A program made the translations under genes and the position numbers. From the NCBI RefSeq assembly GCF_900103665.1, contig NZ_FNGY01000002.1, positions 620,001 through 684,000 of the forward strand: a stretch of DNA of 64,000 nt, in the 5' to 3' direction. Positions within the stretch are counted from its first letter, which is position 1. Every line of letters begins with the position of its first letter. The notes under the pieces were generated by a model. It worked only from the letters and a program-made list of their open reading frames with translations, did no database searches and was not told where the DNA came from. Below, piece after piece: positions 39,083 to 56,294 of the stretch. This DNA is from Pedobacter steynii (GTDB taxonomy: Bacteria; Bacteroidota; Bacteroidia; Sphingobacteriales; Sphingobacteriaceae).

Positions 39083-39673
39083 ATGGCTATTAAACCCCTT
39101 AAAAATGAAACTGAATTATTGCTCAGCATTGCTGAAGGGAATCAAGAGGCTTTTACTGTAGTCTTTAATTACTATTACGATTATGTCTTTTCTTTTAGCA
39201 GGAAACTGACGCGTTCAGAAGAATTAGGAAAGGAAGTTGCTCAGGATATTTTCATGAAGATTTGGTTCGATAGAAATAACTTAGTAAATATTGAAAATTT
39301 CGGTGGCTTTGTGAATAGATTGGTTCGTAATCATTCCTTTGATATATTGAGAAAATTAGCTACCCATGAAAGAGCTAGTCATGAAATAGGACTTTCTTCT
39401 ACTGAATTAGATTCAAATACCGAGCAAACCCTTGATTATAATGAAACGCTAAAAATTCTGGAAGAGGCTATTGAGCTTTTACCTGATCAGCAAAAAAGAG
39501 TTTATGTGCTTTGCCATCAGGAAGGACTAAAATATGATGAGGCTGCGAAAGAATTAAATATTTCTTCTGCAACTGTTCATTATCATATGAAGTTGGCTCT
39601 TAGTGTTATACGGGGTCATTTTAAACGAAATGCAGTTGCTTTTCCGTTTCTTATGATGTGTTTTTTAAAATAA
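39083..39673 (+). CDS. ECF sigma factor, FecI-like Bacteroidota type
   Basis: 196 residues. Sigma region 2 (NYYYDYVFSFSRKLTRSEEL with VAQDIFMKIWFDR) and region 4 (LLPDQQKRVYVLCHQEGLKY, ELNISSATVHYHMKLAL) are complete. It directs RNA polymerase to the promoter of the SusC-led cluster under control of the FecR-like anti-sigma encoded next, the standard Bacteroidota arrangement for TonB-dependent receptor loci. Confidence 0.93.
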   Translation: MAIKPLKNETELLLSIAEGNQEAFTVVFNYYYDYVFSFSRKLTRSEELGKEVAQDIFMKIWFDRNNLVNIENFGGFVNRLVRNHSFDILRKLATHERASHEIGLSSTELDSNTEQTLDYNETLKILEEAIELLPDQQKRVYVLCHQEGLKYDEAAKELNISSATVHYHMKLALSVIRGHFKRNAVAFPFLMMCFLK

Positions 39674-39766: not shown

Positions 39767-40927
39767 ATGGATCATAATAATAAGCGACTATCTGAACTTT
39801 TTAACGGGTATCTTTCTCAAATCAATACAGATGAGGAGCGGATCGAATTTTTCGATTATGTACAAGATCCATTTTATGCGGTAGATATTCAGGAGTTAAT
39901 TTCTGATGCTTATGAAAACCAAGTTGAACCGGTTAACATAGATGCGCGAATAAAAGCAGAAGTCCTGAATTCAATTTTAGCTGAAAAACAATTTATAAAT
40001 ACACCGAAGCGGATTAAACTTTGGCCTGGTATAGCTGCAGCTGTGGCTATAATTACTGTAGTTGGTTTAGGTCTTTTATTTTATAATGATAAAGCAGTTG
40101 AGCAGAGCGTTGTTACAAACCAAGCCAATGATGCTTCTCCGGGAAAAAATACAGCCACATTAACACTTGCAGATGGCAGGAAAATTATGCTGTCCAATGT
40201 AAAGAATGGACAGTTGGCAAACGAGTCTGGTTCGATTATCTCTAAAACAGTGGATGGTCAGCTTGTTTATCAGGACGGGAAAATGATAAGTGATGAAAAA
40301 GTTAGTCCCAATGTATTATCGACAACCAGAGGCCAGACTTATAAGGTTCAGTTACCTGATGGTACAAATGTATGGCTAAATTCGGCCTCTTCGATTAAAT
40401 ACCCGGCATCTTTTGCTAATCTTAAAGACAGAACTGTTGAGTTAACTGGCGAAGCTTATTTTGAAGTGGCTAAGGAAAAAAATCATCCTTTTATAGTTAG
40501 GACGGATCGTCAGGAGGTAAGGGTGCTTGGAACGCATTTCAATATAAATAGTTATAAAGATGAACCGGCAATTGTCACGACCTTACTTGAGGGATCCATT
40601 AGAATTAACAACGTAAAAACGCTTAAACCCGGGGAACAGGCGGATTTGGATAAAAGTGGTGAGCTGATTGTTTCCCAGGGGAACAGCGATGCGGCAGCCT
40701 GGAAGGATGGAAAATTCAGATTCCTTAATACTGATTTGGAAACCGTATTAAGACAGCTTGGTCGTTGGTATGATGTTGAGATTAAATATGAGGATGCAAT
40801 ACCTCAGCGGAAGTTCACTGGTGGTATTGACAGAAGTCTGAAGGCTTCGGAGGCTTTGGATATTCTTAGGTATACTAAAGTAAATTTTAGAATCGAGGGA
40901 AAAACAATAATCGTAAGTAATAAGTAA
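39767..40927 (+). CDS. FecR-like anti-sigma factor
   Basis: 386 residues. A short cytoplasmic N-terminal part, one membrane segment at about 86-106 (LWPGIAAAVAIITVVGLGLL), then a periplasmic FecR domain (TTRGQTYKVQLPDGTNVWLN, VELTGEAYFEVAKEKNHPF, FIVRTDRQEVRVLGTHFNIN) and a C-terminal DUF4974-like domain (FLNTDLETVLRQLGRWYDVE). It holds the sigma factor until the SusC plug signals a bound substrate through STN contacts. Confidence 0.93.
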   Translation: MDHNNKRLSELFNGYLSQINTDEERIEFFDYVQDPFYAVDIQELISDAYENQVEPVNIDARIKAEVLNSILAEKQFINTPKRIKLWPGIAAAVAIITVVGLGLLFYNDKAVEQSVVTNQANDASPGKNTATLTLADGRKIMLSNVKNGQLANESGSIISKTVDGQLVYQDGKMISDEKVSPNVLSTTRGQTYKVQLPDGTNVWLNSASSIKYPASFANLKDRTVELTGEAYFEVAKEKNHPFIVRTDRQEVRVLGTHFNINSYKDEPAIVTTLLEGSIRINNVKTLKPGEQADLDKSGELIVSQGNSDAAAWKDGKFRFLNTDLETVLRQLGRWYDVEIKYEDAIPQRKFTGGIDRSLKASEALDILRYTKVNFRIEGKTIIVSNK

Positions 40928-41153: not shown

Positions 41154-44100
41154 ATGAAAATAAATGCTTTTATCCTAGGCAGGCTTATTCATAGGCGGCC
41201 AGGTAAACTTATATTAATCATGAAATTAACCACTTTCATATTAATTTTAGCCTTAACGCAAGTATGCGCAAAGGGATTTGGACAAAAGATCAATCTGAAT
41301 GAAAAAGATGTGTCCCTGGAAAAAATCTTACAAATGATAAGACAACAATCGGGGTATGAGTTTTTTTATGATGTGAAAGATCTGCAAGGCAAGAAGATAA
41401 CTGTTAAGCTAATGAATGCTGCAGTAGAGGATGCTGTAAAACAATCGCTCGTTGGTTTTCCCTTATCCTATAAAATCTTAAATAAAACTATTGTACTGAC
41501 AAGGACATCAGTTACGGAAATGGTTAATAGTGAGGTTATTGATCCTGTGAGAATTACTGGGAAAATTACCGATTCCCTGGGTAAACCACTAGAGGGTGCG
41601 ACCATCTCGGTACAAAGAAAAACTCGGGAAAAAGACATCAGAATTAGTAGTTCTGGACTAATTGTTGGCCCATCAGGTGAATTTGAAATGATTGTTGGGG
41701 AAGGGGACAAGATTTTCATTACTTATATTGGATATGCTGCTTTTTCTTTTACCGCAAAAAGAAATTTGGCCTATCAGAATATAGTTCTTCAAAAGTCCAG
41801 TCAGAACTTAACTGAAGTAACAGTCTCTACCGGTTATCAAAAATTGTCAAAAGAACGCGTTACAGGTTCCTTTGCCAAACCGGATATGAAGGTCTTTTCT
41901 AATCGTACCGGTACGATGGATGTGGTTGCCAGACTCGAGGGGCAAATAGCCGGTTTATCTGTTGGACAAGAATATGACATAGATGTTAATACCGGAGCAA
42001 AGACTCGAAAATCACTCATTAGAGGTACTGGTAGTATGCTGCTTTCTACAGAGCCATTATATGTTTTAAACGGTGTGATCATTAAGGATTTTAGCCTGGT
42101 GAATATTGACGATATCGACGATATTACTGTATTGAAGGATGCTGCTGCAGCAGCGATTTGGGGTGCTCAGGCTGCCAATGGTGTAATTGTTGTCAATACC
42201 AAGTCCGGAAAAAAGAATCAAAGAGTCAGGGTTTCATATAGCGGATTCGCGGATTTTCAAAACAAGCCGGATATGAACTATGAAAAAACTTTAAACAGTC
42301 GTCAGCTCATCGAGTCAGCAAAGGAAATCTTTGATCCAACATTTTACCCTTATAATTCGCTTACTTATAGTATGATAGCTCCACATGAAACCATATTGTA
42401 TAATCGGTCCGGTGGGAAAATAACAGAGGCTCAGGCAAATGCAAGCCTGGATAGTCTTGCCAATATAGACAATCGGTCCCAGGCCAAAGATTTGTTTTAT
42501 CGCAATACCTACACGACCAACCATACTGTTTCAGCATCTGGAGGTAATAATATGTATTCCTTTTATACTTCTTTAGGTTATACGGGGTCAAAGGGGCCGG
42601 CTCCAGGTTCGAACTCGGATACATACAAAATAGGATTTAATCAGGATTTTAGCCCTAATGACCGGATCACGACAGGGCTTAGTGTACAATTGTTAAGTTC
42701 AAAAGCAAAAGGTAATAATGCATTTAGCTATAATAGAATGTCTGTGTTACCTTACCAATTGTTTAAGGATGCTCAGGGAAACAACTTAAGTATGCCCTAT
42801 ATGGTGTCTCGCTTCTCGCCGGAGCTTCGCGATTCTTATCAGACACAAAGTGGAGTGGATCTTTCTACTTATAGCCCGCTGGATGAAGTAAATTATGGGT
42901 ATTCAAAAAATAATATGCTCAGTGTTAATGCGGTTTCAAATACTACAATAAAATTATGGAAAGGACTGAGTTTTTTGGGTACATATGGCTATTCAACTGC
43001 TCCGAGAACTACAAAATCCTATGAGGATCATGCTAAGTATAGTTCACGTGCCCAATCCATAGATTTTATTCCTGTAGATGGTTCTGAACCTTATATTCCA
43101 TTGACGGGTGGAACATTAAATACTATTGAAGCGAATCAGAGAAACTGGACGGTTCGTAATCAGCTTGTTTACAACTACACAGGTAGGGAAGGAAAGGATA
43201 TGTTTACATTTCAAGGAGGTCATGAGGCTAGTGAAAGCTTGACAAACAGCACCAAAACTTATGTGCTTGGCTGGGATGAACAACTTCAGACTTCTGCAGA
43301 TGTAGATTATAAATTGCTTAAGCAAGGGGTATTCAATACGATTACCGGAGCGGGTTTTCTATACATTTTTCCGTACCAAGCTACGGAAGTGTTTTCGAGG
43401 TTTAATTCCTATTTTGCTATGGGAAGTTATACTTTAAACCAAAAGTATACTATAGATGGAAGTTGGCGGGTTGATAAAAGTAGTTTGTTTGGCAGTGATA
43501 TATCTGCGCAGAATAAGCCTGTTTATAGTATTGGTGGTAAATGGAATATGGCCAGTGAGAACTTCATGAAGCCGATAACATGGATCAATCAATTGGCACT
43601 TAGGGCAACCTATGGTATTACGGGGAATTCACCTTACACAGGTTTTGCTACAATATATGACGTAATCAGCCCTGAACAGTTTTTATTTTACCCTCAGATT
43701 GCAGGTCCTTCCTACGGACTGGCGACTCCGGCCAACAGGAAGCTGAGCTGGGAAACAAGTAAGACGATCAATTTAGGGGTAGATTTTGGGATTTTGAATG
43801 GTCGCTTACGCGGTAATATGGAGTATTATCGTAAAAATACCAGCAATTTATTAGGTTTTCTTCCTTTGGATCCCTTTACCGGCTTAGGGAGCGCAGCATC
43901 AAATGGTGGAGATGTGGTTAATCGCGGTTGGAACATTTCACTGTTTAGTACAAACATTACTTCGAAGGATTTCAGCTGGAATACAGCACTTATATTTTCT
44001 GCCAATAGAAATAAGTTGCTGAGTTATGGTCCGGTGAAGAGCTACGAAAACCAGCCTGATTTTAGGACTTCTGCAACCTATGTTACTGGTTATTCATATA

Positions 44101-44741
44101 TGCCTTTATTTGCGTATAAGTACGCTGGTTTGGATAACCAGGGTGATCCCCAGATATATTTGGCTGATGGGACGATAACTAAAGATCCTTCAAAGGTTCA
44201 GGCAAAGGATTTGGTGTATATGGGATCTACAATACCCAAGTTTAATGGCGGGATGAGTAATACATTTAAGTATAATCAATTTACGCTCATGCTGAATATG
44301 GTCTATAATTTTGGAGCTGTAATGCGCAGAGATGTGAATGAGTTTTATACCGGTAGACTTAGTACATGGAACGTATCACCTGAGTTTTTAAATCGATGGA
44401 AAAAACCTGGGGACGAGAATAAGACCAATATTCCTGGCTATCGTGCAGATCCCAATTACTTTGACCGAAGCACATCGTTTTATACTTTAGCAGATATCAA
44501 TGTTGCAGATGCTTCTTATGTCAAGCTTAGAGAGACTACTTTAGGGTACGATCTTAATCCAAAGCTTCTTAAGGGGCTAAAAATTCAAAGTGCAAGCCTA
44601 TTTGTGCAGATGAAGAACATCATGCTCTGGAAAGCCAATAAATATGGGATTGATCCGGAGTATCATGATTTTAGACGAGGGACACGTGCTCAAAGAGCAG
44701 GGGAACATTCCATGTCAATAGGGGTAAATATTAATTTTTAG
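41154..44741 (+). CDS. SusC/RagA-type TonB-dependent outer membrane transporter
   Basis: 1195 residues. A signal sequence follows MKLTTFILILALTQVC (internal ATG at 41220; the 41154 start adds a 22-residue leader, as in many SusC proteins). Then an STN signalling domain (about 45-115: DVSLEKILQMIRQQSGYEFF), a CarboxypepD_reg-like domain (about 135-200), the plug (VTVSTGYQKLSKERVTGSFA and ITVLKDAAAAAIWGAQAANG) and a long beta-barrel ending in a terminal aromatic residue (SIGVNINF). It imports an unknown ligand, using energy from TonB, together with the SusD lipoprotein. The STN domain fits control through the upstream sigma/anti-sigma pair. The 40928-41153 spacer holds no gene. Confidence 0.94.
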   Translation: MKINAFILGRLIHRRPGKLILIMKLTTFILILALTQVCAKGFGQKINLNEKDVSLEKILQMIRQQSGYEFFYDVKDLQGKKITVKLMNAAVEDAVKQSLVGFPLSYKILNKTIVLTRTSVTEMVNSEVIDPVRITGKITDSLGKPLEGATISVQRKTREKDIRISSSGLIVGPSGEFEMIVGEGDKIFITYIGYAAFSFTAKRNLAYQNIVLQKSSQNLTEVTVSTGYQKLSKERVTGSFAKPDMKVFSNRTGTMDVVARLEGQIAGLSVGQEYDIDVNTGAKTRKSLIRGTGSMLLSTEPLYVLNGVIIKDFSLVNIDDIDDITVLKDAAAAAIWGAQAANGVIVVNTKSGKKNQRVRVSYSGFADFQNKPDMNYEKTLNSRQLIESAKEIFDPTFYPYNSLTYSMIAPHETILYNRSGGKITEAQANASLDSLANIDNRSQAKDLFYRNTYTTNHTVSASGGNNMYSFYTSLGYTGSKGPAPGSNSDTYKIGFNQDFSPNDRITTGLSVQLLSSKAKGNNAFSYNRMSVLPYQLFKDAQGNNLSMPYMVSRFSPELRDSYQTQSGVDLSTYSPLDEVNYGYSKNNMLSVNAVSNTTIKLWKGLSFLGTYGYSTAPRTTKSYEDHAKYSSRAQSIDFIPVDGSEPYIPLTGGTLNTIEANQRNWTVRNQLVYNYTGREGKDMFTFQGGHEASESLTNSTKTYVLGWDEQLQTSADVDYKLLKQGVFNTITGAGFLYIFPYQATEVFSRFNSYFAMGSYTLNQKYTIDGSWRVDKSSLFGSDISAQNKPVYSIGGKWNMASENFMKPITWINQLALRATYGITGNSPYTGFATIYDVISPEQFLFYPQIAGPSYGLATPANRKLSWETSKTINLGVDFGILNGRLRGNMEYYRKNTSNLLGFLPLDPFTGLGSAASNGGDVVNRGWNISLFSTNITSKDFSWNTALIFSANRNKLLSYGPVKSYENQPDFRTSATYVTGYSYMPLFAYKYAGLDNQGDPQIYLADGTITKDPSKVQAKDLVYMGSTIPKFNGGMSNTFKYNQFTLMLNMVYNFGAVMRRDVNEFYTGRLSTWNVSPEFLNRWKKPGDENKTNIPGYRADPNYFDRSTSFYTLADINVADASYVKLRETTLGYDLNPKLLKGLKIQSASLFVQMKNIMLWKANKYGIDPEYHDFRRGTRAQRAGEHSMSIGVNINF

Positions 44742-44762: not shown

Positions 44763-46274
44763 ATGAAAAGATTTGATAATGTGAAAGTGGTATTTATGAT
44801 AGCACTTTCACTCACAATAAGTTCATGCAAAAAAAGTTTTCTGGAAAAAGTGCCGAAAGGAGTGTTAGTTGCCACGACTTATGAAGACTATGATAAACTA
44901 ATGAACAATACAAGTTATTATATCTATAATAATGCAGGGCCATGGCAACCAGCAATGTTAATGGGAGATGAGGTGTCCGCTGAAGATGCAAATTATAATC
45001 AGGAGGGGATGGAACAGGCAGGTTTCTTTTTCCAGTGGGAAAAAAACATTTTTATAGCCAATGCGAGTTCATTTCAGCCTTTGGATAATCCTGGTTTTTT
45101 ATCCCGGTTTTTAGGAGAGCTGTATACTGTTAACATGATTGTCAATGGAGTGAACGGTGCATCAGGTGGCTCGGCACAACAAAAGCTTGATATTCAGGCT
45201 CAGGCAAAAGTTACTCGTGCTTTTATCCAATTTCAACTGTTAAATTACTTTACGAAACCTTATTCAGCGGCAACAGCCTCAACTGATTTGGGCTTCCCAA
45301 TAATTAGGACAGCTGAGGCTACAGCTACCGATTTCAAGCGGGGAACACTTCAGCAGTCGTATGATGCCATAATCGATGATATTTCCTCATCTATACCCAA
45401 CTTGAAAATTCAGCCAGCGTTTCCAACCCGTATGTCAAAATCTGCTGCAGAGGCGCTTTTGGGGAAAATTTATTTATTTATGGGAAGGAATGCAGAGGCG
45501 CTTAAGCAGTTCAACGACGCTTTCAGTGATCTTTCAAAAATGAGCAATCCACCACGCTTATATGACTATAATGAAACTTTTGCTGCTAACGGATCCTTTT
45601 TGCCAATTAGTCCTGTATCGGGACCGAATTCTCCGTTTAATAACAGTACCGATATTATTGAATCGCTGGTGGCTAAAATGTCTTATTCAGGTAGCTACAA
45701 TGGTAATGGTTATAGCAATGATTTTTTGACAATTAGTCCTCAGACTGTTGCATTATACGAAAATTCGGATTGGAGACTTCAGTTTTATACTGATCTGCAA
45801 GCAGATTTTAATCCGATTCCTGTTTCTGGAGGAAATGTTCGTCTGCGTAAATATGGTTTGAGGTTTGCACGGATTGGAATGCAGTTATCTGAATTATATT
45901 TATTAAGAGCTGAAGCCAGGGCAAGAGCAGGTGATCTGTCTGGAGCAAAAGAAGATGTTGAAGCCTTACGGGTTAAAAGAATGCCCGCGGCTCAGGCAGT
46001 TGTACCTACGCTAATTGCCGGTAATAAAGAAGCACTCATCAAATTCATCATAGAAGAACGTATCCGGGAATTTGCTGTTGAAGGCTATCGTTGGTTTGAT
46101 ATGCGCAGATTGTCGGTAGATCCATTGTTCGCCAACCAGCCAGCTGCCAAGCATATTCGATATGCTGCTGATGGTACAGTTTTCAAAGAGTTTACTTTGA
46201 CTCCTGCAAGGTTAACACTTAAAATACCGCCTCCTTATCTGAATGCCCATCCTGAAATGCAGGATAATCCTTAG
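44763..46274 (+). CDS. SusD/RagB-family outer membrane lipoprotein
   Basis: 503 residues. Lipobox SSCKKS with the lipidated cysteine at about 22. SusD helical features are the N-terminal TYEDYDKLMNNTSYY region, the TPR-like SAAEALLGKIYLFMGRNAEAL and LSELYLLRAEARARAGDLSG, and the C-terminal IIEERIREFAVEGYRWFDMRRL signature. It caps the SusC barrel and binds the substrate. Spacing of 21 bases after susC indicates an operon. Confidence 0.94.
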   Translation: MKRFDNVKVVFMIALSLTISSCKKSFLEKVPKGVLVATTYEDYDKLMNNTSYYIYNNAGPWQPAMLMGDEVSAEDANYNQEGMEQAGFFFQWEKNIFIANASSFQPLDNPGFLSRFLGELYTVNMIVNGVNGASGGSAQQKLDIQAQAKVTRAFIQFQLLNYFTKPYSAATASTDLGFPIIRTAEATATDFKRGTLQQSYDAIIDDISSSIPNLKIQPAFPTRMSKSAAEALLGKIYLFMGRNAEALKQFNDAFSDLSKMSNPPRLYDYNETFAANGSFLPISPVSGPNSPFNNSTDIIESLVAKMSYSGSYNGNGYSNDFLTISPQTVALYENSDWRLQFYTDLQADFNPIPVSGGNVRLRKYGLRFARIGMQLSELYLLRAEARARAGDLSGAKEDVEALRVKRMPAAQAVVPTLIAGNKEALIKFIIEERIREFAVEGYRWFDMRRLSVDPLFANQPAAKHIRYAADGTVFKEFTLTPARLTLKIPPPYLNAHPEMQDNP

Positions 46275-46347: not shown

Positions 46348-47277
46348 ATGAAACAAAGTATTGTAAAAATTGAAAGTCTATCCCATAAGTATACACGGGA
46401 CTGGGCTATTCGCGACATCGGCTTCGAGGTCGATAAGATAGGTATACTAGGTCTTTTAGGTTCCAATGGGGCTGGTAAATCAACAATAATGAATATTCTT
46501 TGCGGGGTTTTAAACCAGACTGAAGGAAATGTATTTATTGATGATATTGATTTACGCAGTAAACCTGAAGATGCAAAACGATTACTAGGGTTTTTGCCGC
46601 AAAATGCGCCTCTTCATTTGGAATTAACGGTTGAAGAATATCTAACTTATTGCGCTAATATCCGTGATATTGAAAAAAATAAAATAAAAAGTGCAGTTGA
46701 TGGGGTTATGGAGAAATGCGGAGTATCGCATTTCTCTAAAAGACTCTTACAGAATCTTTCTGGTGGATATCGCCAGCGTGTAGGGATTGCCCAGGCAATT
46801 ATTCACCAGCCAAAATTAGTAGTGCTTGATGAACCTACCAATGGACTGGATCCGAATCAGATTATCGAGGTTAGAAAACTCATTAAGGAGATTGGGGAAG
46901 AAAGAGCAGTAATATTTTCTTCTCATATTCTGTCAGAAGTTCAGGCAATTTGTAAGCAGGTTAAAATGATTGAAAGTGGACGTATGGTGTTTTCTGATTC
47001 CATGGATGCTTTTAATAATTATGTGTTGCCCGATACCATGATAGTATCAATGGATAATCCGCCTTCGGTGGAGGAACTGAATGCTTTTCCTGGAGTAACT
47101 AAGGTAGAATTGCTGAATGACAGAAGCATCAGGTTACATTTTACGCCAAATAAGAATATTTCCAAAGAGGTTATTGCAGCCAGTGTACAGCGCGGCTGGG
47201 AATTAAATGAAATAATGTTTGAGAGAACATCTCTTGATGAGGTGTTTGCTCAATTATCCAATAAGACAAAACGATAG
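46348..47277 (+). CDS. ABC transporter ATP-binding protein, GldA-like
   Basis: 309 residues. Walker A GSNGAGKST at 38-46, ABC signature LSGGYRQRVGIAQA from 137, Walker B LVVLDEPTNG around 157-165, and the H-loop SSHILSE. This is the ATPase of an ABC-2 type transporter, closest in form to GldA of the gliding-type GldAFG transporter. The partner membrane protein follows after 6 bases. Confidence 0.92.
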   Translation: MKQSIVKIESLSHKYTRDWAIRDIGFEVDKIGILGLLGSNGAGKSTIMNILCGVLNQTEGNVFIDDIDLRSKPEDAKRLLGFLPQNAPLHLELTVEEYLTYCANIRDIEKNKIKSAVDGVMEKCGVSHFSKRLLQNLSGGYRQRVGIAQAIIHQPKLVVLDEPTNGLDPNQIIEVRKLIKEIGEERAVIFSSHILSEVQAICKQVKMIESGRMVFSDSMDAFNNYVLPDTMIVSMDNPPSVEELNAFPGVTKVELLNDRSIRLHFTPNKNISKEVIAASVQRGWELNEIMFERTSLDEVFAQLSNKTKR

Positions 47278-47283
47278 AGACAA

Positions 47284-49584
47284 ATGAGAAAGATATTAAA
47301 AATTGCAAAATTAGAACTTAGTATACTCGTGTACTCTCCAGTGGTCTGGTTGGTACTCCCTATATTTTTTGTGCTTTGCGGATTAGGTTTTATCGATAAT
47401 CTGCAGAATACCCTAGTGCTCATATCTTATGGGAAGGGTAAGCCACTTACAACTTTATTATTCGGAGGAGAGTATGGATTGTTTACCACTATTCAGCAAA
47501 CTTTGTACCTCTATTTGCCAATCTTAACGATGAGTCTGATGAGCCGGGAAACAAATAGTGGTTCAATTAAGCTACTGTTATCCTCTCCGGTAAAATTGCG
47601 GGAGATTATTTTAGGTAAATATCTGGCAATTGTGGCTCTGGGCCTTGCTTTCATCGCTATTTTGGCAGTATTTGGAGTTATCGGTTTCTTTTCTGTACCA
47701 CATATGGAGGTAGGAATGGTAATTTCAGGGTTGTTTGGACTGTTTCTGCTGGTTTGTACGTATGCTGCTATCGGGTTGTTTATGTCATGTCTAACTATTT
47801 ATCAAATAGTGGCTGCAATAGCTACGCTCTCTATTTTTGTTGCATTGAGGTACGTAGGAGATGTATGGCAATCTGTAAATTTTGTACGTGATCTGACCTA
47901 TTTTTTATCGATTTCCGGCCGGACCGATCTTATGATTGCGGGTCTGATTAAAACAGCAGACGTATTTTATTATTTGATTGTCATCTATATGTTCCTGTCG
48001 TTCTCCATACTTTATTTGAAGAACCAACGTGAGTTAAAAACCTGGAAAGTAAAACTTGGCAAATACTTGCTGGTATTTACATCTGCTTTGGCTTTGGGGT
48101 ATATAACCTCAAGACCAGCTTTGACTGGATATTTAGACACAACTGTAGGCAAATCTATGAGTCTAACAGATGCTGGACAGGAAATTGCTAAAAAGATTGA
48201 TGGTGAGCTTAAAATAACTACTTATGTGAATTTGCTAAGTCCAGGTTTGTATTCTTTTTTACCGCAAAAGAGAAATGCTGATTTGGGCCAGCAGGAACCT
48301 TATAGAAGGTATATACCTGGGATGAAAAACGAATATGTTTATTATTATCATCTAACCACTGATACTACTTTGGCTTTTTATAAGAACAATCCACTTTATG
48401 CAAAGCTTAAAGATACCAAAGCAATTGCAGAAAAAGTTGCGTATTCTATGGATTTAAATATCAAAGATTTTATGACTCCTGATGAAATCGACAAAATGAT
48501 AGATCTAAAATCCGAAGGATATTTGCATTTAAGAAAACTGGAATATAAAGGTAGAACTACTACTCAGCGTCTTTTTGTACTGGATCAAGATGCATACCCA
48601 AAAGAATCTGAATGGATGGCTTCATTAAAACAATTGCTTGGTGACACCGCTAAAATGGTGTTTTTAACCGGTAATAATGAAAGTGATATTATTAACAAAA
48701 ATGATAGGGGATACAAAACTGTTGCTTTTGATAAGACACAAAGGAAATCTTTTATCAATCAAGGATTTGATGTGGATACACTTAACCTCAATACCCAGGA
48801 CATCCCTGATAAGGGTGAGATCCTGGTAATGGGAGACCCAACTGTACCATTCAGTGCTGCTGCAGAAAAAAAGCTGTCTGATTATATTAAAAATGGTGGA
48901 AATATGTTGATTACGACTAACCCCGGAAGACAAGATATTGTCAATCCTATTTTATCAAAATTAGGGTTGCAGTTAAAGAATGGTATGCTTGTTAAACCAG
49001 ATAAAGATATGGCAGTGGATAAAATCAAATCCAGAATTTCAAGCGATGCGGTTGGAATGGATCGAAATATAGATTTGCTACATAATGGGAACTGGGAGTT
49101 AACTCTAAAAGAGGTCTCGGCTATTGCTTATTCCGATTCGAGTGAATTTAAAATAAAATCATTGTGGAAAAGCCCCGATGGAGGATGGAATAAGGTGGTT
49201 CCATTGGATATCAATGCTACAGCCTTGGAATTTAACTCGTCGCAAGGAGATCAGAAGGGAATTTTTGCCACTTCTGTAGCCCTGACCAGAAATGTCAAAA
49301 ATAAAGAGCAGCGGATTATTGTTACTGGAGATGCCGATTTCATGAGTAATGTTGAGCTTGACAATTTCCCTCCTACGGCAACGCAAATGAATATTAATTC
49401 AATATTCAGATGGCTTGCTTATGGCAAATTTCCAGTTGATGAAATAAGACCTAACGCTAAGGATATTGATATAACAGTTTCAAAGGAACAAATTAGTGCT
49501 TTTGGCATCGTATGTAAGTTTGTTCTTCCTGCTATTCTGGTGGTTATAGGTATGATTGTGTTATTTAAAAGACGGAGGAACTAA
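47284..49584 (+). CDS. GldF-GldG fused ABC transporter membrane protein
   Basis: 766 residues. The N-terminal 250 residues have six or so membrane segments of an ABC-2 permease (VWLVLPIFFVLCGLGFI, LLLSSPVKLREIILGKYLAI). After a further membrane segment (about 255-275) a large extracytoplasmic part resembles GldG: LTDAGQEIAKKIDGELKITT, the Rossmann-like VFLTGNNESDI, LVMGDPTVPFSAAAEKKLSDYIKNGG (given as separate parts) and a final membrane helix (FVLPAILVVIGMIVLFKRRR). In typical gliding loci GldF and GldG are separate genes; here they are one. Cargo unknown. Confidence 0.82.
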   Translation: MRKILKIAKLELSILVYSPVVWLVLPIFFVLCGLGFIDNLQNTLVLISYGKGKPLTTLLFGGEYGLFTTIQQTLYLYLPILTMSLMSRETNSGSIKLLLSSPVKLREIILGKYLAIVALGLAFIAILAVFGVIGFFSVPHMEVGMVISGLFGLFLLVCTYAAIGLFMSCLTIYQIVAAIATLSIFVALRYVGDVWQSVNFVRDLTYFLSISGRTDLMIAGLIKTADVFYYLIVIYMFLSFSILYLKNQRELKTWKVKLGKYLLVFTSALALGYITSRPALTGYLDTTVGKSMSLTDAGQEIAKKIDGELKITTYVNLLSPGLYSFLPQKRNADLGQQEPYRRYIPGMKNEYVYYYHLTTDTTLAFYKNNPLYAKLKDTKAIAEKVAYSMDLNIKDFMTPDEIDKMIDLKSEGYLHLRKLEYKGRTTTQRLFVLDQDAYPKESEWMASLKQLLGDTAKMVFLTGNNESDIINKNDRGYKTVAFDKTQRKSFINQGFDVDTLNLNTQDIPDKGEILVMGDPTVPFSAAAEKKLSDYIKNGGNMLITTNPGRQDIVNPILSKLGLQLKNGMLVKPDKDMAVDKIKSRISSDAVGMDRNIDLLHNGNWELTLKEVSAIAYSDSSEFKIKSLWKSPDGGWNKVVPLDINATALEFNSSQGDQKGIFATSVALTRNVKNKEQRIIVTGDADFMSNVELDNFPPTATQMNINSIFRWLAYGKFPVDEIRPNAKDIDITVSKEQISAFGIVCKFVLPAILVVIGMIVLFKRRRN

Positions 49585-49614: not shown

Positions 49615-50961
49615 ATGAGTTTTAAAACTGACAAGCAAACCCTTCATGATCTGAATATCTTCGGTAAACAGGGTAATGATTCTATATTTAGCCTTTATAA
49701 CAACACTTTTACTCGTGGGGGATCTGATATTTTAGAGAATATGTTTCTGTATCCTTTGTCAGATGCTGATTCCATAAACGATAGGAGCCTGACTATTCAA
49801 TATTTCAGCACGCTTAAAGTTCAATTTCCTATTAAGACAGAGTTTCTAGATAGTGCGGAAATCTATTTGTCAATGACAGACCCACGTACAAAATTGGTAC
49901 TGGATAATAATAATTTATCTGGGAAATTTACCCGGTTGATTTCTGTCGATGGGGATTATCAATTAATTTATAAGGGTGTTACAGCTATTATAGAAATACT
50001 TGGTAGTTTGCTAGAATTTGTAGATACCGTAAAGTTGTCTGCAAGATCAACTCCATTTGATAAAGAGCTGCAATCATTACAAAACTTATTAGGGGAAGAA
50101 GAAATAACCGGTACAATTAATCAGGGAAATCCAGGTCGAAAATTGTCGTATGAGCAGGTTGTGCCCTATGATAATTTGTTTAGATTTCGAATCAGTAAAA
50201 AGATCAAGGAAATTCTGACTTGTATTTATTATTTAGATGTCTACATGTCTATTGCCAATGTAGCAGCTAAAAAGGGGTACGTCTTTCCAACTGCCCTAAA
50301 TAAGGAGCGTCATACGGTAAGGCTGTCCCAGCTCTACCATCCATTGGTTAAAAATGCAAAAGCGAATAGCATTGATATTACTCCAGAGAAAAATATTGTG
50401 TTTTTAACAGGGGCGAATATGGCTGGAAAATCAACTTTTATGAAGTCGTTGGGGATTGCTTTGTATCTGGCACACATGGGGTTTCCTGTCGCTGCATCAG
50501 CCATGGAATTCTCTATTCGTGATGGCATTTATACCACGATTAATCTTCCGGATGATTTAAGCTCAGGTAAAAGTCACTTTTATGCCGAAGTCTTAAGGGT
50601 GAAAACAGTAGCAAAAGAACTCGGGTCATCAAAGAATCTATTTGTAATTTTTGATGAATTGTTCCGGGGGACTAATGTTAAGGATGCTTACGATGGAACT
50701 ATAGCAATTACTGAAGCTTTTGCTCAGAAAACCAATAGCATGTTTGTGGTATCTACACACATCATTGAAGCAGGGGAGGTATTGAAAGAGACTTGTAAAA
50801 ATATAAATTTTGTTTACCTGCCCACTTTGATGGAAAATAATGTACCTGTGTATACCTATCGCATTGAAAGTGGGATTACTGCTGATCGGCATGGGATGAT
50901 CATTATTAATAACGAGGGGATTTTGGAGATTATTAGAAGCAAAAATAAAAGAACAACATGA
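49615..50961 (+). CDS. Short MutS-like ATPase, first of a pair
   Basis: 448 residues. A MutS core/lever region (DLNIFGKQGNDSIFSLYNN, then ILENMFLYPLSDADSINDR) leads into the MutS ATPase: Walker A TGANMAGKST (265-274) and Walker B VIFDELFRGTN (344-354), plus STHIIEAGE. MutS usually reads GPNMGGKST and DEIGRGT, so both motifs deviate in the same way in both paralogues. The mismatch-recognition and connector domains of MutS and the Smr domain of MutS2 are absent. The role is unknown. Its stop overlaps the second gene's start by 4 bases. Confidence 0.87.
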   Translation: MSFKTDKQTLHDLNIFGKQGNDSIFSLYNNTFTRGGSDILENMFLYPLSDADSINDRSLTIQYFSTLKVQFPIKTEFLDSAEIYLSMTDPRTKLVLDNNNLSGKFTRLISVDGDYQLIYKGVTAIIEILGSLLEFVDTVKLSARSTPFDKELQSLQNLLGEEEITGTINQGNPGRKLSYEQVVPYDNLFRFRISKKIKEILTCIYYLDVYMSIANVAAKKGYVFPTALNKERHTVRLSQLYHPLVKNAKANSIDITPEKNIVFLTGANMAGKSTFMKSLGIALYLAHMGFPVAASAMEFSIRDGIYTTINLPDDLSSGKSHFYAEVLRVKTVAKELGSSKNLFVIFDELFRGTNVKDAYDGTIAITEAFAQKTNSMFVVSTHIIEAGEVLKETCKNINFVYLPTLMENNVPVYTYRIESGITADRHGMIIINNEGILEIIRSKNKRTT

Positions 50962-52313
50962 GCTTTTACGTAGACAAACAAACCCAGGAAGATTTGAATC
51001 TTTTGGGTAGATATAAAAACAATTCCATAGTTCGTCTTTTTGATGAAACGGTAACTACTGGCGGAAGAAAGCTATTGGAGAAAATGTTTCAGGAACCTTT
51101 AACAGATCCGGATTCCATAAACAAGCGGACCAGCATTTTTAGTTATTTTTCAACCCAACCCATTTCCTTTCCATTTTCTACTGAAGAGTTTGAAGTAGTA
51201 GAGAATTATCTTGCATCAAATGGTAGTGAAAACATATTCGATGCTGGCTTGGGGATTGCTTATAAGAAAGTATTATATGTTTTGGCAAATGACAAAGATT
51301 ATGAGCAGCTTAACCTTGAGATCTGTAACACTATCGGGCTGCTAATCCGGTTTTCAGATTTTATAGCGCAGTTTTCTGCCAATACCAATAACCCTTACAG
51401 TGAAAATCTTGAACTGATCAGGCGGATATATAGTCATCCAAAGTTACAATGGTTAAAATCTCAGGATGGCGTAAAAGACATTCCTCTTTTTAAGTTGATC
51501 AGATATGATTATTTATTAAGAACAATATTGCATAAAGAAATGCAGGTACTAAGCTCAATAGTATTTGATCTGGATGTTTGTATCGCAATTTCCCAGGTGG
51601 CTGTAAAAAGGGGCTTTAGTTATGCTAATGCTTTAGCTGGTAATGCCAATAAGCTTAGCATTACGGGCCTTTATCACCCTTGTATAGCCCAGGCGATTGG
51701 TAATGATCTTTCATTGATTGAAAACAGTAATGTCTTATTCCTGACCGGAGCTAATATGGCGGGAAAATCGACTTTAATGAAGTCTTTTGGAATTTCTATG
51801 TACCTGGCGCATATGGGCTTTCCTGTTGCTGCTCACCGTATGGAGTTTTCTGTTAAAGATGGGCTTTACACTTCGATCAATGTCCCCGATAATCTTGAGA
51901 TGGGCTATAGTCATTTTTATGCTGAAGTATTGCGTGTAAAAAAGGTAGCTGAGGAAGTTGCTGAATCGAAAGATCTTATTGTAATTTTTGATGAGCTCTT
52001 TAAAGGAACAAATGTCAAAGATGCTTATGATGCGACTTTGTCAATAACTGAAGCGTTTTCCGAACACAGCAATTGCTTCTTTATGATATCTACTCACATT
52101 ATTGAAGTGGCGCATGAGTTGAGTAAGCGATGTGATAATTTTCAATTTATCTACCTGCCAACTGTAATGGATGGTGTTGTACCCCGATATACCTATAAAC
52201 TGACACAAGGAATTACTGAAGATCGTCAGGGAATGATCATTATTGAGAATGAGGGAATCATTGATATTATAAAAAATACACATCATTCAAGTTCAGTAAC
52301 ATCAACCATTTAG
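50958..52313 (+). CDS. Short MutS-like ATPase, second of a pair
   Basis: 451 residues, similar along its length to the preceding protein: DLNLLGRYKNNSIVRLFDET, LLEKMFQEPLTDPDSINKR, Walker A TGANMAGKST (263-272), Walker B VIFDELFKGTN (342-352), FFMISTHIIEVAH. Like its partner it lacks a mismatch-binding domain. The ATGA overlap and same length suggest the two gene products form a heterodimer, which is inferred. The C-terminus (TEDRQGMIIIENEGIIDIIK) matches the partner's (TADRHGMIIINNEGILEII). Confidence 0.87.
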   Translation: MSFYVDKQTQEDLNLLGRYKNNSIVRLFDETVTTGGRKLLEKMFQEPLTDPDSINKRTSIFSYFSTQPISFPFSTEEFEVVENYLASNGSENIFDAGLGIAYKKVLYVLANDKDYEQLNLEICNTIGLLIRFSDFIAQFSANTNNPYSENLELIRRIYSHPKLQWLKSQDGVKDIPLFKLIRYDYLLRTILHKEMQVLSSIVFDLDVCIAISQVAVKRGFSYANALAGNANKLSITGLYHPCIAQAIGNDLSLIENSNVLFLTGANMAGKSTLMKSFGISMYLAHMGFPVAAHRMEFSVKDGLYTSINVPDNLEMGYSHFYAEVLRVKKVAEEVAESKDLIVIFDELFKGTNVKDAYDATLSITEAFSEHSNCFFMISTHIIEVAHELSKRCDNFQFIYLPTVMDGVVPRYTYKLTQGITEDRQGMIIIENEGIIDIIKNTHHSSSVTSTI

Positions 52314-52356: not shown

Positions 52357-53490
52357 ATGAAAAAGATATTTTTATTAGGGCTATTTGCCTTTCCTTTTAC
52401 GGTTTGGGCACAGAACGGAATCTTTTTACTTACAGGTCAAGTTGGTCAGGAATCTGCACCAGCTAAAGTTTACTTAAACTATCAACAGGACGGTCAGTTA
52501 AAGACATTAACCTCAGCGGTAGTCAAGGGTGCGTTCCAATTTAAAGGAACACTAACAGATCCAAAGCAGGCACAATTGGTATTTGATCATGAGGGCACTG
52601 GGATGGAAAAATTAGGGAGAACTGCTGATGTCAAAATCCTCTTTCTTGAAAAAGGAAGTTTGCTTCTTAGCTCAAAAGACTCTGTTAAAAATGCTTCTAT
52701 ATCAGGATCTCCGCTAAATGAAACTTATAAAAGGTTCCAGGCTTTGATGGTGCCATCTGAAAAGGCAATGAGAATGGTGGAGCTTGAATACAGGAATGCA
52801 CCTGAGGCTAAGCAAAAAAGCCAGCAGTTTCAAGAGAGCCTACAGTCTAAGCTTATGAAATTAAGTGCTGAACAGCGGGTCATCATTCTGCAATACGCGA
52901 AGAAGAATCCGACTTCTTTTTTAAGCCTGCATCTGTTAACGCAATTGGCATCTCCGGATATGGATACACAGGTTATGAGGTCTGCATTTAATGCACTTTC
53001 TACTAATCTGCGCGGCAGTAAGCTTGGAAAGGAGCTAGTGGGTAAGTTGGGTACTGCTTCTGCTACTGCTGTAGGGGGGATGGCACCTAACTTTACTCAG
53101 AATGATGTTAATGGGAAGCCTGTTAAGCTGTCGGACTTTAAAGGTAAATATGTTCTACTTGATTTTTGGGCTAGCTGGTGTGTGCCCTGCCGCGCGCAAC
53201 ATCCTAATCTGGTAAAGACCTATAATAAATACAAAGGTAAAAACTTTACGATTCTAGGCGTTTCATTAGATGATGCTGGAAAGAAAGCAGACTGGCTTAA
53301 AGCAATTAAATCAGATGGTTTAACCTGGACACAGGTATCTGATCTTAAATTTCGTGATAATGAGGTCGCTAAATTGTATAACATCAATGCCATCCCTCAG
53401 AACTTTTTGATTGATCCTAGTGGAAAGATCATTGGAAAAAATCTCCATGGTGAAGAACTCAATAAAAAATTAGCTTCAATATTCAAATAA
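52357..53490 (+). CDS. TlpA-like thioredoxin with an N-terminal DUF4369-like domain
   Basis: 377 residues. A signal peptide (KKIFLLGLFAFPFTVWA), a beta-rich DUF4369-like region (about 20-130), a helical linker, then a thioredoxin domain with the redox motif WASWCVPC (C275, C278), LLDFWASW and the cis-proline NAIPQNFLIDP. It would act as a periplasmic thiol oxidoreductase. Such proteins are often encoded with SusCD pairs and M16 peptidases in Sphingobacteria. Confidence 0.9.
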   Translation: MKKIFLLGLFAFPFTVWAQNGIFLLTGQVGQESAPAKVYLNYQQDGQLKTLTSAVVKGAFQFKGTLTDPKQAQLVFDHEGTGMEKLGRTADVKILFLEKGSLLLSSKDSVKNASISGSPLNETYKRFQALMVPSEKAMRMVELEYRNAPEAKQKSQQFQESLQSKLMKLSAEQRVIILQYAKKNPTSFLSLHLLTQLASPDMDTQVMRSAFNALSTNLRGSKLGKELVGKLGTASATAVGGMAPNFTQNDVNGKPVKLSDFKGKYVLLDFWASWCVPCRAQHPNLVKTYNKYKGKNFTILGVSLDDAGKKADWLKAIKSDGLTWTQVSDLKFRDNEVAKLYNINAIPQNFLIDPSGKIIGKNLHGEELNKKLASIFK

Positions 53491-53510: not shown

Positions 53511-56294
53511 ATGAAAATCAAGTATTTATTTGCCTGGGGCTTTATCTTAGTTGGGCTTTGTTCAGCTAATGCTCAAGTTTTGCCGCTGGATCCTGATGTA
53601 AGAACAGGTAAATTGCCTAATGGATTTACGTATTACATACGACAAAATAACGAACCAAAGAACCGAGTGGTCTTATATCTTGCAAACAAGGTAGGTTCTA
53701 TTCTTGAAACAGATGAGCAACAGGGGTTGGCGCATTTTATGGAGCATATGAGCTTTAATGGTACCAAAAATTTCCCAAAAAATGAATTGGTGAATTACCT
53801 TCAAAAAACTGGGGTCAGGTTTGGTGCAGATTTAAATGCCTATACAGGGTTTGATGAAACTGTCTATCAACTTCCTTTACCAAGTGATGATCCTCAGGTA
53901 CTCCGCAATGGGATTCAGATCCTGAGAGACTGGGCTGCTGAGGCAACGCTGGAAACATCAGAGATCGATCAGGAACGCGGAGTAATTATAGAGGAAAAGC
54001 GGTTGGGAAAAGGTGCTAACCAGCGTATACAGGAGCAGATTCTTCCTGTACTTCTTAATAACTCCCGTTATGCCAAACGGTTGCCAATTGGAACCGATGA
54101 GGTATTACTTAATTTTAAACCAGAAGCTATCCGTAATTATTATCGTGACTGGTATCGTCCGAATCTTCAGGCGCTGATCGTGGTGGGAGATATTAATGTG
54201 GACGAAATGGAGAAAGTGATTAGGGATAAATTCTCCGATCTTAAGAATCCAGCAGATGAAAAGCCAAGAGAGAACTATGAAGTGCCTTTAACCGGGAAGA
54301 ATCAATTTTTGGTGGCAACAGATAAGGAAATGACCTCAACGGTTGCACAATTGATTATTAAACATAAGGCACCGGAACTTAAAACTGAAAATGATTATCG
54401 GAATCTTTTGATACGCAGTTTATTTAACCAAATGTTAGGTAACAGATATATGGAGTTATCACGTCAGGCGAATCCTCCTTATGTTCAAGGCTCGGCAAAA
54501 ATTGAAACGCTTATGGGAGGTTTAGATTCTTTTTCAATTTTAGTGGTTGCAAAACCTAACGAATTGGAGAATGGTTTCAAGGCGGTGTTGCGTGAAATGT
54601 GCCGGGTTCAACAATCCGGTTTTAGTGAGACAGAACTTGATAGGGCAAAACAGGGATATTTAAGTTCGATGGAAGCTGCTGTTAAAGAAAGGGATAAGAC
54701 CCCCTCTGATGCTTATGTTCAGGAATATCTGCAACATTTTCTGCTGGAAACTGGTGCTCCTGGAATTGATAAGGAATTTGAACTAGTCAGCAAGATTATT
54801 CCAGAAATTACAAATGAAGACATCAATAGGATATGTGCGGAATATATAAGTAATATCAATAGAGACATTATCATTACGGCGCCAGAGAAAGACAAGTCTA
54901 GTCTTCCTGATGAATCAACTGTACTGAACTGGGTGAATAGTGTTGAAAAGGAAAATTTTGCTGCATTTAAAGATGATGTTAGTAATCTACCATTACTTGC
55001 ATCAACTCCTGTACCGGGAAAGGTTGTTGGAAAAGACGTAAATTCAAAACTTGGTATCACTACCTTAAAACTGAGCAATGGAGCGAAAGTTGTATTAAAG
55101 AAAACGGATTTTAGGAACAATGAGATTTTGTTTAAAGCATATTCTGAGGGGGGTACATCTTTATATGGTGATAACGATTATGAAACAGCTCATAGCGCTG
55201 CGGGATTAATTGCATCAGGTGGATTGGGTAATTATAATGTAACTCAATTGAGTAAGTATTTGTCTGGAAAACAGTTAAGCGTAGCGCCTTTTATTGGAGA
55301 ACGTACTCAGGGATTTTATGGAAGTTCTAGCCCAAAAGATTTGGAAATGGCATTCCAGTTGTTGTATGGTTACTTTACAGAACCACGCAAAGATGCTGAG
55401 CTTGTAAAAGGGTTATTGGCAAATGCTAAAAATGGACTTGCAAACCGTGAAGATGATCCTAGTCAGGTTTTTAATGATACGGTGTCTGCCGTGTTGAATA
55501 ATTATAACATACGCAGGACTGGGCCTTCAATTGAAAAAGTAAACCAGATTGATCTTGATCGCGCATTACAAATATATAAAGAGCGTTTTTCTAATGCATC
55601 GAACATGATTTTTACTTTTGTTGGTAGCATTGATGAGGCGCAGATTATACCACTTTTGGAGAAATATATAGCTTCATTACCATCTACAGGAAAAGTTGAA
55701 ACTGCCAGGGATTTGGGGATTGAAATTCCGAAAGGAAAAATTTCGAAAACTGTTTTCAAAGGAAAGGAACAAAAATCAACGGTTTATCTGGTATACTCAG
55801 GTCCGTTTGATTATAGTCATCAAAATACTTTGAATATGAATGCCTTAAACGAGAGTTTACAAATCAGATTAAATGAAAGATTGCGTGAGGAGGAAAGTGG
55901 GGTTTATACGCCAAAGATTCAAATCGGAGTAACTAAATATCCTAAGAGCAGTTTTAATTTGGTGATATCATTTGGATGTGCACCGGAAAATGTAGATCGG
56001 CTGATCGTTGCTGCTGTAGAAGAAATAGAGAAATTAAGAAAACTCGGACCTGGACAGGAGAATGTTGATAAATTCAAAGCTGAGGATTCAAGGATGCGTG
56101 AAATGGGACTAAAAACCAACGGTTTCTGGTCTGGTTATTTAAATGAACAAATGCTTTCTAAAGAACCTTTGGATCAGGTATTTAATTATGATGCTGCTAT
56201 GTCTAAGGTAACGGTTCGAAGTATACAGGAACTAGCTGCTAAATATTTAACGGGAGAAAATTATATAAAATTAGTTTTGATGCCCGAAAAGTAA
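53511..56294 (+). CDS. M16-family zinc metalloprotease (insulinase/pitrilysin type)
   Basis: 927 residues, a full two-domain M16 enzyme. A signal peptide (YLFAWGFILVGLCSANA), then the inverted zinc motif HFMEH (H75, E78, H79) and the distal glutamate in the RGVIIEEKRLG region around residue 155. The second half (from about 490) is the inactive M16 repeat, with a QL/YG-type clamp. Located in the periplasm or outer membrane, it would degrade peptides taken up through the SusCD pair. It ends the long rightward array. Confidence 0.92.
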   Translation: MKIKYLFAWGFILVGLCSANAQVLPLDPDVRTGKLPNGFTYYIRQNNEPKNRVVLYLANKVGSILETDEQQGLAHFMEHMSFNGTKNFPKNELVNYLQKTGVRFGADLNAYTGFDETVYQLPLPSDDPQVLRNGIQILRDWAAEATLETSEIDQERGVIIEEKRLGKGANQRIQEQILPVLLNNSRYAKRLPIGTDEVLLNFKPEAIRNYYRDWYRPNLQALIVVGDINVDEMEKVIRDKFSDLKNPADEKPRENYEVPLTGKNQFLVATDKEMTSTVAQLIIKHKAPELKTENDYRNLLIRSLFNQMLGNRYMELSRQANPPYVQGSAKIETLMGGLDSFSILVVAKPNELENGFKAVLREMCRVQQSGFSETELDRAKQGYLSSMEAAVKERDKTPSDAYVQEYLQHFLLETGAPGIDKEFELVSKIIPEITNEDINRICAEYISNINRDIIITAPEKDKSSLPDESTVLNWVNSVEKENFAAFKDDVSNLPLLASTPVPGKVVGKDVNSKLGITTLKLSNGAKVVLKKTDFRNNEILFKAYSEGGTSLYGDNDYETAHSAAGLIASGGLGNYNVTQLSKYLSGKQLSVAPFIGERTQGFYGSSSPKDLEMAFQLLYGYFTEPRKDAELVKGLLANAKNGLANREDDPSQVFNDTVSAVLNNYNIRRTGPSIEKVNQIDLDRALQIYKERFSNASNMIFTFVGSIDEAQIIPLLEKYIASLPSTGKVETARDLGIEIPKGKISKTVFKGKEQKSTVYLVYSGPFDYSHQNTLNMNALNESLQIRLNERLREEESGVYTPKIQIGVTKYPKSSFNLVISFGCAPENVDRLIVAAVEEIEKLRKLGPGQENVDKFKAEDSRMREMGLKTNGFWSGYLNEQMLSKEPLDQVFNYDAAMSKVTVRSIQELAAKYLTGENYIKLVLMPEK

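Follow-up and report, generated by a model that had tools for sequence, protein, structure and literature searches.

MutS is the textbook sensor of DNA mismatches. MutS1 and the MSH2–MSH6 proteins carry a mismatch domain (I), a connector (II) and a clamp (IV) in addition to the core/lever domain III and the ATPase domain V, and MSH proteins combine two different subunits. MutS2 lacks domains I and II, acts as a homodimer and is reported to bind branched DNA (PMC12292046); its ATPase is reported to split stalled ribosomes (PMC10897456), which provides a precedent for a MutS-type ATPase acting off DNA. KamC (NF052383), a further MutS-type ATPase, is named as a reactivase, a role away from DNA, with its function taken from the model name. 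Among transport systems, the GldA–GldF–GldG gliding transporter combines an ATP-binding cassette (ABC) ATPase, a permease and a PF09822 domain, and SusCD/RagAB cassettes comprise genes for an extracytoplasmic function (ECF) sigma factor, FecR, SusC, SusD and M16 or S41 peptidases, with DUF4843 and PKD-like proteins in some. The locus considered here lies in Pedobacter steynii (contig NZ_FNGY01000002.1, positions 620,001–684,000; this whole stretch of 64,000 nucleotides is referred to as the window) and encodes an overlapping pair of short MutS-family ATPases, MutS-A and MutS-B, within a SusCD cassette to which an ABC ATPase and GldFG, a permease fused to a PF09822 domain, have been added. No description of a MutS pair or of GldG with SusCD was found among the matches listed in the open-licence literature, and one may exist elsewhere; nor did the literature searched contain a study of ABC-GldFG as the inner-membrane part of SusCD systems.

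On balance, MutS-A and MutS-B probably constitute an obligate heterodimeric, clampless MutS-family ATPase that serves the ABC ATPase and GldFG permease of SusCD uptake cassettes. The basis for this reading in sequence consists of the two-gene make-up, the old split between A and B, repeated fusion and fission, linkage to ABC-GldFG, conserved ATPase motifs and the absent clamp. MutS-A (49615..50961, + strand; 448 amino acids) and its paralogue MutS-B (50958..52313, + strand; 451 amino acids) overlap by ATGA and are 44% identical. Both begin at the core domain and match PF05192 (MutS_III) and PF00488 (MutS_V; E values of 6.3e-30 for MutS-A and 3.7e-27 for MutS-B), whereas neither matches MutS domains I, II or IV (PF05190, the clamp) or Smr in a Pfam scan at E 0.001; the mismatch and connector parts are thus missing. 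Both proteins belong to the MutS superfamily, as their domain V contains the Walker A, Walker B and signature motifs. The Walker A motif GANMAGKST is present in both (50410..50436 and 51747..51773, + strand), and this motif, SHFYAEV, DELF(R/K)GTN and STH are kept with small variants among 82 A rows and 81 B rows, the clearest difference between A and B being the residue after DELF (R in A, K in B).

Scores against the family models are low. MutS1 model TIGR01070 gives 132.7 bits for MutS-A and 111.8 bits for MutS-B (cut-off 641.7), MutS2 model TIGR01069 gives 82 and 70 bits (cut-off 400), and no NCBIfam model reached its cut-off for the MutS proteins scanned. Ordinary mismatch repair is ruled out by the domain content and these scores. 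The pair represents a MutS subfamily that has no name so far and occurs in a new setting; it shares with MutS1 and MSH2–MSH6 the domain III/V fold, Walker A and B and the signature stretch, and with MSH proteins the use of two different subunits, but sits in a transporter cassette, and differs from MutS2 in lacking an Smr match and in having two distinct subunits. The preliminary description of the window, made by a model from the letters alone, had the two overlapping reading frames, their lengths, the missing mismatch-recognition and Smr domains and the Walker B motif right, and the clamp can be added to what is missing. It had also called the Walker A motif altered; that the motif is common to both proteins holds, but it closely resembles TGPNMSGKS of the MutS1 of the same genome. 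Two other readings were considered and rejected. An anti-phage defence role was rejected on a PADLOC match of MutS-A of only 3e-4, the four proteins scanned besides it and the ABC ATPase being without a match; the cassette ABC ATPase matched ATPase models of several PADLOC systems (best mad3, 3.9e-27), as expected of any ABC ATPase. A phage or plasmid origin was rejected on PHROGs matches solely to function-unknown models (best 2.6e-30), and plasmid records contained no match to MutS-A at E 1e-40, phage records not having been searched.

The pair is a stable two-gene unit. Species genomes were scanned with an alignment of five short MutS proteins of this genome, and the 80 loci compared are the best 80 of at least 547 relatives, ranked by closeness to MutS-A. 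Two MutS copies are present in all 80, as neighbouring genes in 61 (one truncated by a contig end) and as a single fused protein of 878–929 amino acids in 19. By record titles, these loci come from Chitinophagaceae, Sphingobacteriaceae, Odoribacteraceae, Rikenellaceae, Dysgonomonas and other Bacteroidota. The P. steynii genome itself (8.06 Mb, nine MutS_V matches) has a second complete cassette with the same gene order and a second MutS pair (L009/L010, C26 711600-729400), whose sigma gene lies about 53 kb from that of the first cassette and whose GldFG is enlarged to 941 amino acids. This recurrence, within one genome and in the 80 loci, speaks against a chance arrangement. In a quick tree of 177 proteins, the first and second copies form two clades (support 85 and 95), and the order is reversed (B-A) in only one locus of 82 (L077). 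Twelve solo relatives fall outside the A and B clades in this tree, where a long-branch warning leaves their exact placement unsure. Across a tree of 81 loci, the fused and split states require seven changes, of which at least six are forced by well supported branches. The phylogeny places A and B as products of one old duplication. Because of this duplication, the fusion in 19 of the 80 loci and a correlation of 0.81–0.91 between A and B distances (see below), MutS-A and MutS-B very probably form a heterodimer, as had been proposed for the window.

ABC-GldFG, not SusCD, is the steadiest partner of the pair in gene neighbourhoods. Of the 80 loci, 76 have GldFG adjacent to the pair or elsewhere in its cassette: GldFG and ABC are directly upstream of the pair in 67, one intervening gene is present in one (L066), GldFG lies at a contig edge in three, and in five the pair comes first in the cassette and GldFG follows about 10 kb downstream; one further locus is cut at the edge. 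SusC is upstream in 54 of the 60 loci, drawn from the 67, that have full upstream sequence, and one of the six without it (L053) has a SusCD set just downstream. The order SusCD-ABC-GldFG-MutS-MutS-(TlpA)-(M16) is conserved across loci, as the preliminary description had anticipated, and its SusCD setting is borne out by most loci, although SusCD is the less constant neighbour. It had also named an occurrence of the pair independent of SusCD/GldFG as a finding that would speak against it, and the tally does not do so: in ten genomes chosen via their loci, 63 of 65 pairs lie by GldFG (57 adjoining, six others on the same strand and no more than 16 kb away), with 37 of the 65 coming from two genomes. 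This tally uses hand-entered coordinates and covers 150 of 151 MutS matches and, after removal of the weak or partial ones, 126 of 148 GldFG matches; its 20 single-match MutS units comprise seven beside GldFG with the second copy cut or missing, ten solo genes and three fragments. Of the GldFG genes tallied (n = 126), 70 are nearest to a MutS unit.

The cassettes are amplified in some genomes (a Pseudoflavitalea genome has 22 pairs among the matches listed), and an adjacent or fused pair is, by our reading of the matches, found in 14 of 201 genomes of the family at E 1e-125, a patchy distribution. Both features would suit a pair that travels passively with mobile or amplified cassettes and plays no part in them. 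In a rapidly built tree of 136 GldFG proteins, in which linked rows are over-sampled since loci were found through MutS, linkage to MutS changes 13 times, at least ten of these changes being forced; by this tree, linkage has been repeatedly gained or lost, yet usually at the same position. This recurrence, the conserved ATPase motifs and the lack of any single copy among the 80 closest loci (the ranking by closeness to MutS-A would place solo relatives below these) make passive linkage the most improbable of the readings considered.

The divergence of cassette proteins was compared in three data sets, the first made up of 13 paralogous cassettes within a single genome, the second of 14 cassettes taken from three genomes and the third of 43 loci, after 7 of 20, 1 of 15 and 39 of 82 cassettes, respectively, had been dropped as incomplete. 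Three tight blocks, A-B, ABC-GldFG and SusC-SusD, are present in every set; SusC and SusD are known to form a physical complex. In the first set, the distance correlations are 0.91 for A-B, 0.89 for ABC-GldFG and 0.94 for SusC-SusD, and those of the MutS proteins are 0.70–0.82 with ABC or GldFG and 0.52–0.57 with SusC or SusD. A and B thus follow each other as closely as SusC and SusD do. The A-B correlation is 0.90 in the second set and 0.81 in the third, where the MutS proteins give 0.52–0.62 with ABC or GldFG and 0.34–0.40 with SusCD. The tie of MutS to ABC-GldFG over SusCD is clear in two of the three sets.

Structure models agree with the domain assignments. The predicted model of MutS-A has a predicted local distance difference test score (pLDDT) of 91.5, and that of a fused A-B protein from Pedobacter (L050) has a pLDDT of 86.3 and a predicted template modelling score of 0.75. 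The best match of the MutS-A model is MSH2 in 8omo_A (Z 36.5, 411 residues, 3.4 Å), and it also matches Escherichia coli MutS in 1e3m_B (Z 34.7, 401 residues) and the MutS2 core structure 7vuk_B (Z 33.1); the best match of the fused model is likewise MSH2 in 8omo_A (Z 36.9). Both models align to MutS domains III–V, covering E. coli MutS from residue 264. The region between core and ATPase spans 122 columns, compared with 205 in MutS1, and so is about 80 residues shorter; in the MutS-A model this region consists of helices only, up to about residue 220. By sequence and predicted structure, clamp domain IV is absent from MutS-A and MutS-B.

Conservation was compared with that of 21 MutS1 proteins from the same phylum. 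Overall identity (MutS1 0.51, A 0.54, B 0.50) and ATPase conservation (MutS1 0.71, A 0.72, B 0.70) are comparable, whereas the core-to-ATPase region is less conserved in the pair (A 0.33, B 0.26) than in MutS1 (0.48). The lever tip (residues 143–180, a stretch picked by us from the model), which lies close to the position of the DNA clamp in MutS1, is among the least conserved parts of A and B (0.24 and 0.21), whereas the MutS1 clamp (0.65) is nearly as conserved as the MutS1 ATPase. Since a part that holds DNA should be conserved, the variable tip would suit a changing protein partner rather than a grip on DNA. The net charge of the lever is uninformative on DNA binding, as the MutS1 of this genome is negative too, and simple hydropathy is a loose test here, flagging the MutS-B lever helix at residues 197–216 as membrane-like.

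These observations bear on whether the pair still acts on DNA, either suppressing recombination between similar SusCD cassettes or binding cassette DNA to regulate it. The pair retains the MutS fold and the ATPase motifs, MutS2 is reported to bind branched DNA despite lacking domains I and II (PMC12292046), and genomes with many cassettes, such as that with 22 pairs listed, face recombination between them. A DNA role is nevertheless unlikely, given the missing PF05190 match, the shortened and helical core-to-ATPase region and a lever tip that is poorly conserved where the MutS1 clamp is not; moreover, a genome-wide guard against recombination would need no pair in each cassette beside a permease. 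Mismatch repair is excluded by domain content, and the suggestion in the preliminary description that the pair may sense something other than mismatched DNA is compatible with the absent clamp and the variable tip.

Two further functions off DNA can be considered by analogy with relatives. KamC, which is MutS-related and named for the reactivation of lysine 5,6-aminomutase, is the best-scoring model other than MutS1 models (121.3 bits for MutS-A and 103.2 bits for MutS-B), and a MutS-family gene is drawn in a Cloacamonas gene cluster in a paper on an acyl-CoA transaminase (PMC3149608); the pair might thus be a reactivase or chaperone for an enzyme. The scores are, however, far under the KamC cut-off of 300 bits, the function of KamC is known from its model name alone, and no obvious cytoplasmic enzyme is encoded in the cassette, where all proteins except the sigma factor and the ABC ATPase have hydrophobic or signal-like stretches (by hydropathy or by eye). 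We take the Cloacamonas cluster to be tied to lysine fermentation, and the genome context of KamC presumably differs from that of the MutS-A/B cassettes; a search of 247 genomes of the phylum gave no KamC match at E 1e-80, but neither did the 14 controls, so that this search is uninformative. A reactivase function is quite unlikely. The splitting of stalled ribosomes by the MutS2 ATPase, as reported in the work cited above (PMC10897456), would favour a ribosome or nascent-chain factor that tunes how the very large SusC, or GldFG, is synthesised or inserted; this is very improbable, as no Smr or KOW model is among the Pfam matches and SusC and GldFG occur in cassettes without the pair.

Several observations weigh against a MutS-A/B heterodimer dedicated to ABC-GldFG. 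Three of the 80 loci, all from metagenome-assembled genomes (MAGs) of Odoribacteraceae (L037, L038, L048), show no GldFG, and neither do two of the 65 tallied pairs, both on short MAG contigs. Conversely, 56 of the 126 tallied GldFG genes are not nearest to any MutS unit (22 of these are from one Butyricimonas genome, and the 56 include second copies of tandem GldFG genes). Of 20 further regions, retrieved chiefly to see GldFG apart from MutS, 18 contain ABC-GldFG cassettes without the pair. In the second data set, the correlations of MutS with ABC or GldFG (0.56–0.74) overlap those with SusCD (0.48–0.59); shared operon history inflates all such correlations, which are no proof of contact, and the lever and ATPase parts of MutS show no clear difference in the partner tracked. 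A single-copy short MutS with no GldFG nearby is present outside these cassettes in all ten chosen genomes, one per genome, and because of this solo relative the family has another role too. As to cargo, a peptide is suggested by neighbour domains, and a GH92 glycosidase gene lies beside M16 and TlpA genes in one MutS-less cassette of this genome (L177).

If the heterodimer does serve the transporter, SusCD would import a peptide or small protein, which TlpA and the M16 or S41 peptidases would reduce and cut, and ABC-GldFG would work in the inner membrane with the MutS-A/B dimer on its cytoplasmic side. ATP-driven opening and closing of the levers, as in MutS round DNA, would grip a protein, either a cytoplasmic part of ABC-GldFG or its cargo, and this grip may serve to gate the transporter, to reset it or to unload it; the lever tip, which evolves fast, would fit each cassette's own partner. 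In a broader form, for which we would give somewhat less than an even chance, a branch of MutS has left nucleic acids, its clampless heterodimer being a second ABC-like motor or gate on ABC-2/GldFG with tips re-shaped per cassette, and certain MutS_V proteins of about 600 amino acids (described below), with room for about four membrane helices, being membrane-anchored members. The prediction is that MutS-A/B binds the transporter and not DNA. If true, a machine of DNA repair may have been adapted to transport; the MutS ATPase fold would have a new job in a pair tied to a membrane transporter and amplified in some genomes, many MutS-like proteins of Bacteroidota would gain a function, and ABC-GldFG would be marked as the inner-membrane part of SusCD uptake systems. 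If a direct transport role were demonstrated, the MutS fold would have acquired a new kind of use.

Neighbour domains (M16, S41, TlpA, DUF4843 and PKD_2) suggest that the cargo consists of peptides or small proteins. Within four genes after the first MutS gene, 28 of the 80 loci have M16, 12 have TlpA and three have S41; M16, S41, TlpA or DUF1028 genes lie downstream in some cassettes, and the space between SusD and ABC is occupied by DUF4397, by DUF4843 with a PKD-like protein, or by other genes. In L050:15436-18496 and similar Pedobacter loci, a second GldFG gene and a gene of the fatty-acid-hydroxylase family follow the fused MutS and M16 genes.

The cassette in the window is encoded on the + strand throughout. 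The ECF sigma factor of the Bacteroidetes type (39083..39673; TIGR02985) and the FecR anti-sigma factor (39767..40927; Pfam match) precede SusC/RagA, a TonB-dependent outer-membrane transporter of 1195 amino acids (41154..44741; TIGR04056, 512 bits against a cut-off of 368), and a SusD-like protein (44763..46274; Pfam match); SusC and SusD genes side by side with those for ECF sigma and FecR identify a SusCD uptake cassette. The GldA/DrrA-like ABC ATPase (46348..47277) scores 277.4 bits with GldA model TIGR03522, below the cut-off of 402.6, and GldFG (47284..49584), an ABC-2 permease fused to the GldG-like PF09822 domain, scores 79.5 bits with GldF model TIGR03518, below the cut-off of 288.5; its hydrophobic stretches lie within residues 7–234 and 735–764 by simple hydropathy. 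The two proteins are of the same kind as the ATPase and permease of the gliding transporter, but differ in these sub-equivalog scores, in the fusion and in their occurrence within SusCD cassettes, with many copies in some genomes. The MutS pair is followed by a TlpA/ResA-like thioredoxin of the AhpC-TSA family with an N-terminal DUF4369 (52357..53490; Pfam match, WCxPC visible in the sequence) and an M16 peptidase whose N-terminus has a hydrophobic, signal-like stretch (53511..56294; Pfam match and hydropathy). Intergenic gaps from SusC through M16 are at most 73 bases. Domain scans thus agree with the placing of the pair between GldFG and TlpA in a sigma/FecR/SusCD/ABC/M16 cluster in the preliminary description. 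Elsewhere in the window, 5497-6036 encodes the ATPase domain of a 798-amino-acid MutS-family protein, probably MutS2 as judged by its length.

ABC-GldFG also occurs in other arrangements. In the Butyricimonas genome of L082, which has 25 tallied GldFG genes, tandem ABC-GldFG or GldFG-GldFG genes are found in SusCD cassettes without MutS (L178, L169, L182, L185). In L176, L188, L173 and L178, the ECF sigma gene and FecR are separated by ABC-GldFG, and the transporter in these loci may help to relay signals to the sigma factor.

Other MutS relatives are present in Bacteroidota. The solo short MutS of this genome (L011:9256-10617, C22) lies outside the SusCD-GldFG cassettes and is a possible ancestor of the pair; a gene read by eye as a dihydroorotase gene is near the solo short MutS in eight of the 13 loci compared. 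The MutS_V proteins of about 600 amino acids are found in this genome (L012:6824-8659, L013:6734-8602) and in other Bacteroidota (L107-L123). Two that were scanned have no mismatch, connector or clamp match, and all eight checked by simple hydropathy have hydrophobic stretches in two regions before the ATPase, by which features these proteins are possibly membrane-bound MutS relatives.

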